A stretch of DNA of 64,000 nucleotides. Origin: Amphritea japonica ATCC BAA-1530 (GTDB taxonomy: Bacteria > Pseudomonadota > Gammaproteobacteria > Pseudomonadales > Balneatricaceae). Where the stretch lies: positions 2,116,693-2,180,692 of the forward strand of contig NZ_AP014545.1 in assembly GCF_016592435.1 (NCBI RefSeq), given 5' to 3'. The notes under the pieces are model-generated. The model did no database searches. It was given only the letters and a program-made list of their open reading frames with translations, and had not been told where the DNA came from. Positions 6,632-53,558 of the stretch are shown one piece after another (the first letter of the stretch is position 1; every line of letters begins with the position of its first letter). Made by a program: the position numbers and the translations under genes.

Positions 6632-8596
6632 TTAAGTCGACTTTGCTTTAACCGACCTTTTACCCTTAGCAGCGGTTCCGCGTTTTCCACCGACGGGCTT
6701 CTTTGCACTACTGCGACGTCGAACAGAACGCTTTTTCGGCGGAGGACTTAAAGCTTTCAGGGTATCCGGAATAATCACTTGAGCGGACTGAGCGATCAGC
6801 TCATGAAGTCGTTCTGTCAGAGGCTGCATAAAGTGGCTATAACTGGTTTCCTGCTGACTGATTCGCCCCAGCTCTGATTCCCACAAAGCGGTCATATCCG
6901 GAATAGTCGCGCTATCGGGCAAACAATCAATTAAGGCGCGACCGATCTCTGTGGCACGGATTGTTTTACCCTCACGCTGGGTAAAGTTGCGGGTGAACAA
7001 AAGTTCAATCATCCCGGCTCGGGTCGCTTCGGTGCCCAGCCCGTCGGTTTCCTTCAATACTTTACGGATATCTGCATCCGCGACATAACGACTTATTCCG
7101 GTCATCGCTGCAAGCAGCGTAGCATCGGTAAAGTACTTAGGCGGCTGCGTATTTTTTTCGTCCAGCACTCCCTCTGTGCTTCGCAATGATTGCCCTTCAG
7201 TTAACGGAGGCAGAGCACTTTTCTTAACCCCGGATGATGACAGTAGCGGCTTCCAACCTGTCACCTGCGTTTGGTGAGCTGTGGCTATAAATTCCCCGCC
7301 CGCAATTTTCAGCTCTGCCCGGGTATCATCATATTCATAAGGAGCCATGAACTGAGCCAGATAATACCGACATGCCAGTTCATATATCTGAGATTCCTGT
7401 TGATTCAATGTTGCCAGACTGGCCTGTCGCGTCGTCGGAATAATGGCGTGATGAGCACTGACCTTTTTATCATTCCAGGCCGATGAGCGGCGTGAGACTT
7501 TAATCTGCGGGAGAAACTCTTTTAGCTTTTGTTGATTCGTTGTAATCGCATTAACCACATCTCCTGCCTGGGCATGATGCTCTTCGGGCAGGTATCGACA
7601 ATCCGAACGCGGATAAGTCAGTAACTTATGCCGTTCATACAATGCCTGGCAGGTATCAAGCACTGCTTTAGCGCTCATGCCAAAGCGTTTAGCCGCTTCA
7701 ATCTGCAAAGCAGACAAACTGAAAGGAAGCGGCGCATTTTCACGCTTACGTTTCTGGGTGAGTTTTACCAAGTCGGCAGGCTCTCCCTTTATCCGCGCTA
7801 TCACATTTTCGGCTAGCTTACGGTTTAGCACCCGCCCCTCTTCATCCTGATAAGGCTGGCAGTTTTCGCTGGGTTTCCAGCGAGCTTTAAAACTCTCACC
7901 CGCTTCAGTTTCCACTATCGCCTGTACTTCGTAGAAAGGCCTGGAGACAAACTCATCAATCTCTCTGTCACGCCGTACGACTAACCCAAGTAAGGGCGTC
8001 TGCACCCGGCCAACCGATAATACGCCGTTGTAACCAGCCTTTCTGCCCTGAATACTATACGCCCGGGTTAAATTAATGCCGTAAATCCAGTCAGCCCGCG
8101 AACGCGCCAACGCCGAAGTAGATAACGGTATAAAATCAGTATTCAATTTCAAACTGTTTAATGCTGCGGTAACAGCCTTAGGGTTCAAGTCACTAATCAG
8201 CACCCGTTGAGCCGTCCGCTTCTTCGTGGCACTGGCACCGAGATAATTAATTACCTCATCCACTAGTAACTGCCCTTCACGGTCCGGATCTCCCGCGTGG
8301 ACCAGCTGCTTAGATTGACGAATTAGCCGGCGTAATACCGCCAGTTGAGAGCGGGTCTTACTGCGGGGCTTCAGCTTCCACTCGTCTGGAATAATCGGTA
8401 GGTGTTCAAATCGCCAGGGCTTGAAATCAGGATTATAATCTGCAGGATCAGCCTGTTCCAACAGATGCCCCAGACACCAACTTACGCAGTCACCATTGCC
8501 CAACTCTATATAGCCGTCCTGTTTCTTATGGGGTTTTGGCAATACTTCAGCGATCGCTCTGGCAAGGCTGGGCTTTTCTGCAATATATAAAATCAT
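6632..8596 (-). CDS. topB: DNA topoisomerase III
   Basis: 654 aa type IA topoisomerase that decatenates DNA through a transient 5'-phosphotyrosine link. The TOPRIM part has EKPS at about residue 7 and DPDREGQLL at about 100. The active tyrosine is in LTYPRSD (about 330), and SVGRVQTPLL is the core strand-binding motif. The length matches E. coli TopB (653). The tail (last 35 residues) is rich in Lys, Arg and Ala and is probably a DNA-binding extension; there are no zinc-finger cysteines. The ATG at 8596 fits TopB better than a TTG two codons upstream. Single-gene unit. Confidence 0.95.
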   Translation of the reverse strand: MILYIAEKPSLARAIAEVLPKPHKKQDGYIELGNGDCVSWCLGHLLEQADPADYNPDFKPWRFEHLPIIPDEWKLKPRSKTRSQLAVLRRLIRQSKQLVHAGDPDREGQLLVDEVINYLGASATKKRTAQRVLISDLNPKAVTAALNSLKLNTDFIPLSTSALARSRADWIYGINLTRAYSIQGRKAGYNGVLSVGRVQTPLLGLVVRRDREIDEFVSRPFYEVQAIVETEAGESFKARWKPSENCQPYQDEEGRVLNRKLAENVIARIKGEPADLVKLTQKRKRENAPLPFSLSALQIEAAKRFGMSAKAVLDTCQALYERHKLLTYPRSDCRYLPEEHHAQAGDVVNAITTNQQKLKEFLPQIKVSRRSSAWNDKKVSAHHAIIPTTRQASLATLNQQESQIYELACRYYLAQFMAPYEYDDTRAELKIAGGEFIATAHQTQVTGWKPLLSSSGVKKSALPPLTEGQSLRSTEGVLDEKNTQPPKYFTDATLLAAMTGISRYVADADIRKVLKETDGLGTEATRAGMIELLFTRNFTQREGKTIRATEIGRALIDCLPDSATIPDMTALWESELGRISQQETSYSHFMQPLTERLHELIAQSAQVIIPDTLKALSPPPKKRSVRRRSSAKKPVGGKRGTAAKGKRSVKAKST

Positions 8597-52132: not shown

Positions 52133-52209
52133 TGGCGGAATGGACGGGACTCGAACCCGCGACCCCCTGCGTGACAGGCAGGTATTCTAACCAACTGAAC
52201 TACCACTCC
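52133..52209 (-). tRNA. tRNA-Asp(GTC), copy 1
   Basis: 77 bases with encoded CCA. GGAGTGG pairs with CCATTCC, anticodon loop CTGTCAC with GTC, T-loop TTCGAGT. Last tRNA of the minus-strand array. Confidence 0.97.
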
Positions 52210-52213
52210 GCAG

Positions 52214-52296
52214 TGGTACGGGACTCGAACCCGCGACCATCGATCCCCACATAAGTGACAGACAGATAATCAAACCAATAAACCACCAATACGCAG
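52214..52296 (-). pseudogene. Decayed tRNA-Asp-like copy 1
   Basis: 83-base element that aligns along its length with tRNA-Asp: D-arm-like GGTTTATTGGTTTGA, anticodon-loop CTGTCAC kept, T-arm GCGGGTTCGAGTCCCG kept. The acceptor stem cannot pair (5' GTATTGG, 3' ACCACTG) and the anticodon stem is broken. No CCA end of the right form. Non-functional as a tRNA. Confidence 0.75.
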
Positions 52297-52379
52297 TGGT
52301 ACGGGACTCTAACCCGCGACCATCGATCCCCACATAAGTGACAGATAGATAATCAAACCAGTAAACCACCAATACGCAG
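52297..52379 (-). pseudogene. Decayed tRNA-Asp-like copy 2
   Basis: Tandem 83-base repeat of copy 1, with a few changes (T-loop TTAGAGT in place of TTCGAGT, CTATCTGTCAC). Same broken acceptor stem. Confidence 0.75.
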
Positions 52380-52405
52380 TGGTTGAAACTTTCGTTTCAG
52401 CTTAG

Positions 52406-52481
52406 TGGTGGGCGTGGAGAGGCTCGAACTCCCGACATTCGCCTTGTAAGGGCGACGCTCTCCCAACTGAGCTACACGCCC
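52406..52481 (-). tRNA. tRNA-Val(TAC), copy 1
   Basis: 76 bases with encoded CCA. GGGCGTG pairs with CACGCCC; anticodon loop CTTACAA gives TAC; T-loop TTCGAGC. Confidence 0.97.
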
Positions 52482-52539
52482 ACTAAGCAGATGGATTTAA
52501 TACGATCTTTTCAGCACGTCGAAAAGAAAGGAAAATAAG

Positions 52540-52616
52540 TGGCGGAATGGACGGGACTCGAACCCGCGACCCCCTGCGTGACAGGCAGGTATTCTAACCA
52601 ACTGAACTACCACTCC
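52540..52616 (-). tRNA. tRNA-Asp(GTC), copy 2
   Basis: Same sequence as copy 1, 77 bases with CCA. Its leader toward Val copy 1 has a slightly longer spacer (extra GAAAATAA) than in the other units. Confidence 0.97.
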
Positions 52617-52620
52617 GCAG

Positions 52621-52702
52621 TGGTACGGGACTCGGATCCGCGTCCATCGATCCCCTGTAAGTGACAGACAGATGATCAGACCACTAGACCACCAATACGC
52701 AG
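52621..52702 (-). pseudogene. Decayed tRNA-Asp-like copy 3
   Basis: 82-base relative of copies 1-2, the best folded of the four: D-stem GGTC/GATC and a 5-bp anticodon stem TCTGT/ACAGG can form, but the loop is 9 bases (CTGTCACTT), the T-loop is TCCGAGT, and the acceptor stem does not pair. Confidence 0.7.
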
Positions 52703-52786
52703 TGGTACGGGACTCTAACCCGCGACCCTAGATCCCTTGATTACTAAGAGGCAGGTATTCTAACCAACTGAACTACCACTCCGCAG
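52703..52786 (-). pseudogene. Hybrid decayed tRNA-Asp copy 4
   Basis: 84 bases. The 5' half is that of intact tRNA-Asp (GGAGTGGTAGTTCAGTTGG onward to ACCTGCCT), while the 3' half is that of the decayed type (GTCGCGGGTTAGAGTCCCGTA), with a foreign-looking CTTAGTAATCAAGGGATC between. Looks like a recombination product. Confidence 0.7.
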
Positions 52787-52812
52787 TGGTTGAAACTTTC
52801 GTTTCAGCTTAG

Positions 52813-52888
52813 TGGTGGGCGTGGAGAGGCTCGAACTCCCGACATTCGCCTTGTAAGGGCGACGCTCTCCCAACTGAGCTACACGCCC
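52813..52888 (-). tRNA. tRNA-Val(TAC), copy 2
   Basis: Identical to copy 1, 76 bases with CCA. Confidence 0.97.
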
Positions 52889-52937
52889 ACTAAGCAGATG
52901 GATTTAATACGATCTTTTCAGCACGTCGAAAAGAAAG

Positions 52938-53014
52938 TGGCGGAATGGACGGGACTCGAACCCGCGACCCCCTGCGTGACAGGCAGGTATTCTAACCAAC
53001 TGAACTACCACTCC
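52938..53014 (-). tRNA. tRNA-Asp(GTC), copy 3
   Basis: Identical to copy 1, 77 bases with CCA. Confidence 0.97.
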
Positions 53015-53044
53015 GCAGTGGTTGAAACTTTCGTTTCAGCTTAG

Positions 53045-53120
53045 TGGTGGGCGTGGAGAGGCTCGAACTCCCGACATTCGCCTTGTAAGGGCGACGCTCT
53101 CCCAACTGAGCTACACGCCC
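53045..53120 (-). tRNA. tRNA-Val(TAC), copy 3
   Basis: Identical to the other Val copies, 76 bases with CCA. Confidence 0.97.
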
Positions 53121-53169
53121 ACTAAGCAGATGGCTTTAATACGATCTTTTCAGCACTTCGAAAAGAAAG

Positions 53170-53246
53170 TGGCGGAATGGACGGGACTCGAACCCGCGAC
53201 CCCCTGCGTGACAGGCAGGTATTCTAACCAACTGAACTACCACTCC
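53170..53246 (-). tRNA. tRNA-Asp(GTC), copy 4
   Basis: Identical to the other Asp copies, 77 bases with CCA. Confidence 0.97.
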
Positions 53247-53263
53247 GTTTTTTACTTTCGACT

Positions 53264-53339
53264 TGGTGGGCGTGGAGAGGCTCGAACTCCCGACATTCGC
53301 CTTGTAAGGGCGACGCTCTCCCAACTGAGCTACACGCCC
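53264..53339 (-). tRNA. tRNA-Val(TAC), copy 4
   Basis: Promoter-proximal tRNA of the array, 76 bases with CCA. Its downstream spacer is shorter and differs from the hairpin spacer of the other units. Confidence 0.97.
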
Positions 53340-53354
53340 CAAATCGAGAGCCGA

Positions 53355-53382
53355 ATTCTACGGATTTTGTTTGCCATGTCAA
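53355..53382 (-). promoter_or_regulatory. Promoter of the tRNA array
   Basis: On the minus strand TTGACA, 16 bases, TAGAAT, then a GC-rich discriminator (TCGGCTC). The predicted start is about 8 bases before Val copy 4. A perfect -35 and a GC-rich discriminator are typical of stringently controlled stable-RNA promoters. Confidence 0.8.
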
Positions 53383-53558
53383 ACGTTTATCTCAAATAAT
53401 TTTTATCCACTTTGCTCCCTGGCACCCTCTGTACACATCAAACAGGAATGCTTAGACATGGATGATTTAAGCCAACCCCAGCGGACTCTGATAAACTCGG
53501 CTTATTCAACTCGCTTGTATACCCAACATACAAACAACGCGCTAGCGGATCAGGCCCC

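Follow-up and report, generated by a model that had tools for sequence, protein, structure and literature searches.

tRNA-Asp-derived elements with a conserved T-arm precede tRNA-Asp genes in Amphritea and Neptuniibacter and are candidate structured spacer RNAs

A tRNA array was analyzed on the minus strand of the window, by which we mean the whole 64,000-nt stretch of DNA from Amphritea japonica ATCC BAA-1530, whose genome is assembled as one contig of 3.83 Mb. ARAGORN and Rfam found exactly eight tRNA genes on this strand, four Val-TAC and four Asp-GTC, at the places and in the order given by the first-pass annotation. The identity of the genes within each type was also borne out, with four of four Val copies identical and four of four Asp copies identical as read in the printed sequence. 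The array reads Val-Asp-Val-Asp-Val-(c4-c3)-Asp-Val-(c2-c1)-Asp, where c is a copy of a tRNA-Asp-like element that we term class I. As annotated, there are four elements of 82-84 nt in two pairs, and each pair abuts a tRNA-Asp gene at its 3' end. The features of the locus, in the direction of the array, are as follows:

53355..53382, minus strand: promoter-like TTGACA-16-TAGAAT (11/12), upstream of the first tRNA-Val (motif scan)
53264..53339, minus strand: tRNA-Val(TAC), first gene of the array (ARAGORN, Rfam)
53170..53246, minus strand: tRNA-Asp(GTC), short leader without element (ARAGORN, Rfam)
53045..53120, minus strand: tRNA-Val(TAC) (ARAGORN, Rfam)
52938..53014, minus strand: tRNA-Asp(GTC), leader with GAAA-loop hairpin and CCACTGC, without element (ARAGORN, Rfam, sequence reading)
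52813..52888, minus strand: tRNA-Val(TAC) (ARAGORN, Rfam)
52699..52782, minus strand: class I element copy 4, 84 nt; 5'-terminal 34 nt identical to tRNA-Asp, remodeled middle lacking GTC, T-arm, CCACTGC end
52617..52698, minus strand: class I element copy 3, 82 nt; one T-stem pair broken
52540..52616, minus strand: tRNA-Asp(GTC), copy 3 immediately upstream (ARAGORN, Rfam)
52406..52481, minus strand: tRNA-Val(TAC) (ARAGORN, Rfam)
52293..52375, minus strand: class I element copy 2, 83 nt
52282..52300, minus strand: possible hairpin ACCACTG-CGTAT-TGGTGGT at the junction of copies 2 and 1 (terminator-like match in scan)
52210..52292, minus strand: class I element copy 1, 83 nt; T-arm unchanged, predicted abutting hairpin of 15 pairs
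52180..52242, minus strand: junction of copy 1 and tRNA-Asp, with T-arm, fold-back acceptor hairpin and D-arm; YrlA match of 29.0 bits (cut-off 69)
52133..52209, minus strand: tRNA-Asp(GTC), last gene, copy 1 immediately upstream (ARAGORN, Rfam)

Promoter-like matches in the region numbered 3, with 1.7 expected from shuffles, and terminator-like matches numbered 2, with 2.4 expected. Each element pair is preceded by a leader ending in CCACTGC, and the pair itself also ends in CCACTGC, directly followed by tRNA-Asp. The proposal that the elements were duplicated as the array grew was supported, but not by way of the 232-nt unit to which it had been tied: this unit comprises one Val gene, one Asp gene and short spacers, and where it is repeated at 52749-52980 it reaches over only the first 34 nt of element copy 4, whereas the pairs recur at a spacing of 407 nt. 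An assembly artefact is an unlikely source of the copies, because the genome is a single contig and the same kind of element occurs in separate assemblies of other species.

Several further features of the array were noted. The Asp-to-Val spacers (53121-53169, 52889-52937 and 52482-52539, minus strand) contain a hairpin before tRNA-Val with a GAARTGCT-like loop, and its stem varies by species (CTTTTC/GAAAAG, AATC/GATT, AAGCC/GGCT). The leader GCTTAG and the trailer CTAAGC of one tRNA-Val (52483-52488 and 52400-52405, minus strand) are complementary and would extend the precursor helix, and such complementarity was found for two further tRNA-Val genes of the window's four. Two open reading frames on the plus strand (52790-53044 and 53022-53399) lie antisense to tRNA genes and are likely spurious if annotated.

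We compared the elements with tRNA. The first-pass annotation had them keep the T-arm and the GTC anticodon loop of tRNA-Asp and be unable to form an acceptor stem. The T-arm is kept overall, but one T-stem pair is broken in copy 3 and one T-loop base is changed in copies 2 and 4; the GTC stretch is present in three of the four copies, but copy 4 has CTCTTAGTAATC instead. The statement on the acceptor stem was wrong for the window: the 5' (A)GTGGT or TGGTGGT can pair with the 3' ACCACT(G), and such acceptor-like pairing is part of the minimum-energy fold predicted for each of the four copies. Several related species do not preserve the acceptor-like stem, their copies ending in ACAATGC or ATTACGT. 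The elements encode no CCA, and their 3' end continues into the next gene. The folds predicted for copies 1 and 2 place the GTC outside the end loop of the hairpin, whereas a tRNA carries its anticodon in a 7-nt loop. A permissive scan with the tRNA model (RF00005) gave 25.3 bits for copy 4, below the 29-bit cut-off, and listed no match for copies 1-3 at E values up to 5, in a listing that omits lower-scoring overlapping matches of the same clan. A model of the element family scored copies 1-4 at 90.1, 86.9, 56.0 and 66.0 bits, with copies 1 and 2 inside its training set and copies 3 and 4 outside it. Because of the tRNA score of copy 4 and the family-model scores of all four copies, the elements of the window are not chance matches. 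Their origin from copies of tRNA-Asp is supported.

The position of the elements was next read across related genomes. In Val-Asp arrays they are found on the 5' side of tRNA-Asp, and G007, G011 and G015 have them after tRNA-Thr as well; the longest run is four tandem elements in one Thr-Asp spacer of G011. In both kinds of array (Val-Asp and Thr-Asp), every element run with a readable 3' end stops at tRNA-Asp, and in the piece of Amphritea pacifica examined five of five Asp genes have an element pair upstream. The spacers before tRNA-Asp were also listed from ARAGORN calls, not from the T-arm sequence, at 22 loci of 16 genomes already known to carry elements. This yielded 27 spacers of at least 60 nt, from 12 of the 16 genomes, and the T-arm hairpin was present in 26 of them (23 of 24 distinct sequences), a count unaffected by two T-arm variants that were added to the pattern after inspection. 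The sole exception is the first spacer of G010, which is long and has lost the T-arm. In one of the 27 (G376), what ARAGORN calls as the upstream neighbor, a tRNA-Leu, is in fact an element. One diverged T-arm (G011) has a changed yet still paired stem, GCGAG/CTCGC. Against these 27 long spacers stand 15 short ones without an element before tRNA-Asp; since they lie in the same arrays, the element is not needed by each Asp gene.

Full tRNA genes of another type were not seen at the element sites of relatives, consistent with the first-pass annotation. ARAGORN called two tRNA-Gly(acc) genes (L052, 1875-1965 and 2521-2611) and one tRNA-Leu(taa) gene (L083, 157-238, minus strand; call in L083/L100), all of them on class I elements, and these are taken as false calls.

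Of the 17 Amphritea genomes, 9 have clear copies, as do 6 of the 11 Neptuniibacter genomes, and no clear copies were found in the remaining 88 of the 116 genomes of the family (14 genera). The count rests on a T-arm pattern that identified 14 genomes; G012 was added from DNA and model searches, and inspection led to two loci whose end bases differ being retained. The pattern requires an exact T-arm, so that an absence means no clear copy, and draft genomes tend to break at these arrays, a caveat on the absences. In the family-model search, weak elements were inseparable from tRNA-Asp (63.6 bits) among the matches listed. A junction pattern, consisting of the T-arm, an A and then tRNA-Asp within a short distance, matched 15 DNA stretches in named genomes, from which the window genome's own records may be omitted: nine from Amphritea, five from Neptuniibacter and one from Shewanella nanhaiensis. 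At the level of the order (390 genomes), it occurred in three genomes, the window's own and two Neptuniibacter, and at the level of the class (369 genomes) the T-arm pattern occurred in three, of which the two besides the window's own were true tRNAs on inspection. A DNA search with the c2-c1 pair revealed no such elements elsewhere in the window genome; of its 13 matches at E values up to 1, six fell in the array and six on tRNA genes at other places in the genome, and the last, which is short and weak (E 0.19), coincides with no tRNA found by ARAGORN. Shewanella nanhaiensis (L090, about 7350-7850, minus strand) has partial tRNA-Asp copies, one of them with an insert, beside intact tRNA-Asp genes, and these look like independent copies.

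A tree was built from one neighboring gene in 28 of 30 genomes, the two with partial matches being dropped, and some of its supports are weak. The carriers are scattered across one large Amphritea branch, in which no clear copy was found in G006, G009 and G014 (all drafts); no elements were found in the Amphritea branch of G001, G003 and G013. Within Neptuniibacter, elements are present in six genomes, and none were found in G031, G443, G444, G446 and G449. From this pattern, the element is therefore either old, with later losses, or of more than one origin; a common insertion between GTCAC and GGTC would favor a single origin.

We next examined which parts of the element are conserved. Between genera, the 21-nt T-arm block is on average 95% identical, and the 5' part, the hairpin part and the tail are on average 51%, 45% and 44% identical, respectively; between species within one genus, the corresponding values are 93%, 60%, 50% and 46%. 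In these figures gaps count as differences, the alignment was fitted to the model, and most elements had been found by patterns or models that weigh the T-arm. The conservation of the block covers copies from 13 genomes in two genera. The parts of the element thus have not decayed at similar rates, as those of a neutral pseudogene would, although conversion may have contributed to the difference. In place of the anticodon arm, a longer hairpin that ends at the first T-stem base is predicted in most copies. When the 40 nt before the T-arm were folded, the minimum-energy structure of 20 of 30 distinct copies had a hairpin of 10 or more pairs that stops precisely at the T-arm, with 6.2 expected from shuffles, although the copies share ancestry and the counts are not independent. 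The mean energy z was -1.5, with values above zero in 4 of 30. These 30 remain of the 35 copies of alignment A2 once those that have less than 40 nt upstream of the T-arm, or that duplicate a stretch already included, are removed. In the model-fitted alignment of 35 copies (34 distinct), changes on both sides of a pair with pairing kept occupied 21 cells, compared with 7.3 in shuffles, the covariation score was reached by none of 500 shuffles, and all five measures fell when the pairing partners were slid, in counts for which the alignment was fitted to the structure and the sequences are related. RNAalifold returned the T-arm only, and no abutting hairpin, from a MAFFT alignment of 28 copies and from all 35 copies; from the 19 Val-Asp copies it returned the hairpin, with one pair changed on both sides. 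The tests that do not start from the proposed structure are therefore weaker than the model-fitted ones. A fold-back at the 5' junction, as read from the sequences, is possible in many copies (CCACT-GNRA-AGTGG or CGAAGC-GNRA-GTTTCG, with the variants CCGCT/AGCGG and TCCACT/AGTGGA).

These results show that the description of the elements as decayed tRNA copies is incomplete, since the T-arm block is kept and, in most copies, the middle is rebuilt into a hairpin that abuts it. The second reading offered by the first-pass annotation, a transcript spacer or a tRNA-derived RNA, fits better than plain decay, and by their sequences the elements look more like structured spacer RNAs than like plain dead copies. 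A serious rival, which we regard as possible if somewhat unlikely, is that they are neutral by-products: partial duplicates of tRNA-Asp that are free to decay and whose similarity, also in the T-arm, is maintained by unequal crossing over and by conversion, both inside the array and with the tRNA-Asp gene. Copies within a genome can be identical or nearly so (at four places in G010, and three of the four in the Thr-Asp spacer of G011), and 5' stretches equal to tRNA-Asp in copy 4, in G016 and in the A. pacifica copies suggest that exchange with the real gene does happen. The spacers without elements inside element-bearing arrays and the seemingly independent partial copies beside tRNA-Asp in S. 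nanhaiensis also agree with neutrality. However, exchange would need to respect roughly the same 21-nt limits in copies of 13 genomes and two genera, and 21 nt is a short stretch for recombination. Nor does decay predict the excess of T-arm-abutting hairpins, even with the shared ancestry of the copies, or the compensated stem of the one diverged T-arm. Like tRNA pseudogenes and partial duplicates, the elements derive from tRNA-Asp and lack CCA and a normal anticodon arm; they differ in having a conserved T-arm and a newly built hairpin and in being common to two genera.

We therefore hold, with moderate confidence, that the class I elements are tRNA-Asp-derived structured spacer RNAs, which are probably transcribed and would most likely influence the tRNA-Asp precursor in cis. 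The element may have been born by a partial tandem duplication of tRNA-Asp, running from the leader CTGC to about position 69 and joined to the leader of the next tRNA-Asp, a join that would have removed the 3' acceptor strand and CCA; the join in G012, GTCCA|CTGC, fits a shared CCA. Remodeling of the copy would then have produced up to three pieces: a fold-back hairpin at the 5' junction, whose loop is often GNRA; a long hairpin in place of the anticodon arm, ending at the T-arm; and the nearly unchanged T-arm, with tRNA-Asp or the 5' end of the next element following within a few bases. Judging from its position and the consensus promoter, the element would be co-transcribed with the array. 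Its most likely role would be in cis, as a compact T-arm-bearing structure placed just before the RNase P site of tRNA-Asp, which may guide or pace precursor folding and 5' processing and then be discarded. Transcription as a spacer, selection and this role are what we infer from the arrangement and the conserved parts.

Folding was computed for tRNA-Asp behind nine native spacers (eight with elements) and behind shuffles. Predicted acceptor pairing of tRNA-Asp dropped from 0.97 with the short leader to at most 0.05 in eight of eight contexts with an element in front, and the shuffled means (0.17-0.63) were above those of the native element contexts. Among adjacent tRNAs used as controls, pairing was about 0 for Asn-Asn, Pro-Pro, Lys-Lys and the window's listed Val-Asp pairs, and other pairs, such as Met-Gln, kept at least 0.67. 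The low values are taken as T-arm to T-arm pairing in equilibrium folding. A role of the element as an insulator gained no support from this test, and as several real adjacent pairs are also near 0, the result is evidence for neither side.

We compared the elements with known RNAs. A survey of titles and abstract openings, with many subscription papers outside its reach, found no description of such elements. The nearest known thing in kind is RtT of the E. coli tyrT operon, likewise a spacer RNA within a tRNA operon. A further likeness is that the E. coli RtT repeats include some 3' sequence of the neighboring tRNA. Class I elements differ in resembling a whole tRNA-Asp that lacks the 3' strand of the acceptor, and in being situated on the 5' side of the gene that they resemble. 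The RtT model (RF00391, cut-off 45) had no match on the elements themselves. It scored above cut-off in the Arg-Thr spacer of two relatives (L053, 2082-2204, 61.0 bits; L055, 1784-1906, 57.8 bits), and since their Arg-Thr-Asp arrays carry RtT, structured RNAs are indeed retained within tRNA operons of this genus.

The element/tRNA-Asp junction has the same order of parts as YrlA (RF02553), namely a T-arm, an acceptor-like fold-back hairpin and a D-arm, and this order was found in the alignments for the window and L049 junctions. YrlA includes a tRNA-like domain similar to the D, T and acceptor arms, and the RNA is tethered to Rsr/Ro60 (PMC8394870). At the element junctions, the D-arm differs in belonging to a working tRNA. 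YrlA matches of 23.5-35.4 bits were found at element/Asp junctions of seven loci (the window, L049, L051, L052, L054, L060 and L091), all well short of the 69-bit cut-off. In L049 the alignment spans the full model, with several broken pairs in the outer stem, the part that binds Rsr. Ordinary Asp-to-Val junctions scored 20.6-21.4 bits in the window and 21.9 and 22.6 bits in the element-free arrays L066 and L068, and 23.7 bits was reached twice in L177, both times at Asp-to-Val junctions without elements. No junction match was listed for the element-free arrays L069, L070 and L071, for the element-bearing L053, L057 and L086 (E up to 1) or for the element-bearing L055, L062, L063, L099, L100 and L173 (E up to 5). 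Among the loci scanned, no element-junction match was seen at the Thr-Asp loci (L053, L055, L057) or the Neptuniibacter loci (L086, L099, L100, L177). The stronger junction matches stand out and the weakest do not, because the low end of the element-junction scores overlaps the ordinary Asp-to-Val junctions. Ro60 (TROVE, PF05731) was found in none of 15 genomes, in a search whose control was positive in 1 of 14 well-known genomes. Identity with Y RNA was rejected on the absence of Ro60 from the 15 genomes, the low scores and the weakest element junctions (23.5 bits) not exceeding Asp-to-Val junctions (23.7 bits).

The same order of parts raises another possibility, that the T-arm, the fold-back acceptor hairpin and the D-arm of the next tRNA-Asp form a circularly permuted tRNA-like fold, a new class of bacterial tRNA mimic made in cis, that competes with the true tRNA-Asp fold; maturation of each element-bearing Asp gene in the array would then be conditional, and the tRNA-Asp supply could be tuned by element copy number. 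We consider this very unlikely; both matches in L177 are at element-free Asp-to-Val junctions, which lowers its odds.

The structured spacer that we prefer might instead be released, survive tRNA maturation and act in trans as a small RNA, either as a sponge for other small RNAs or as a decoy for T-arm-binding enzymes. The retained T-arm, the extra hairpins and the several copies per genome would suit such a role, and precedent comes from 3'ETS-leuZ of E. coli, likewise the spacer of a tRNA transcript, for which sponge activity toward RyhB and RybB is reported (PMC8166272). Class I elements, in contrast, lie between genes and upstream of Asp. Outside the T-arm their sequences differ greatly by species, with no fixed target site evident, and we judge a trans-acting RNA to be unlikely.

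The 3' portions of tRNA genes are common integration sites, and the T-arm is the most conserved block of the element, as might be expected of attachment-site or mobile-element remnants at tRNA-Asp. This origin is, however, highly improbable: the elements resemble a whole tRNA, sit upstream of the gene and, in the window genome, occur only in this array, and the element pair had no match in 50,697 phage records. A phage origin was rejected on the same search. A plasmid origin was also rejected; a search with the whole array matched 232 plasmid records, the best covering 54% of the query, and the matches were taken for tRNA genes, with no annotated feature among the matches listed.

A second class of tRNA-Asp-derived spacer was observed downstream of tRNA-Asp in relatives, with a core near GGTTAGAATACCTGCCTGTCATC and a changing closing stem (GATGA/TCATC, GAAAGA/TCTTTC). 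It occurs at L091 (about 6710-7660) and also at L015/L051, L020/L062/L063, L064, L085, L086 and L173; it is in tandem in Amphritea pacifica, and L120 and L124, from two further genera of the family, contain similar stretches. None was seen in the spacers of the window.

The class I elements mislead a tRNA finder, as the two tRNA-Gly genes and one tRNA-Leu gene given by ARAGORN on the elements of relatives illustrate. If they are under selection, they show a route from a duplicated tRNA gene to a structured spacer RNA, along which the acceptor and anticodon functions were dropped, the T-arm was kept and the rest was rebuilt. The many copies in relatives, tandem runs included, could make this path traceable step by step, and it may bear on the origins of tRNA mimics.
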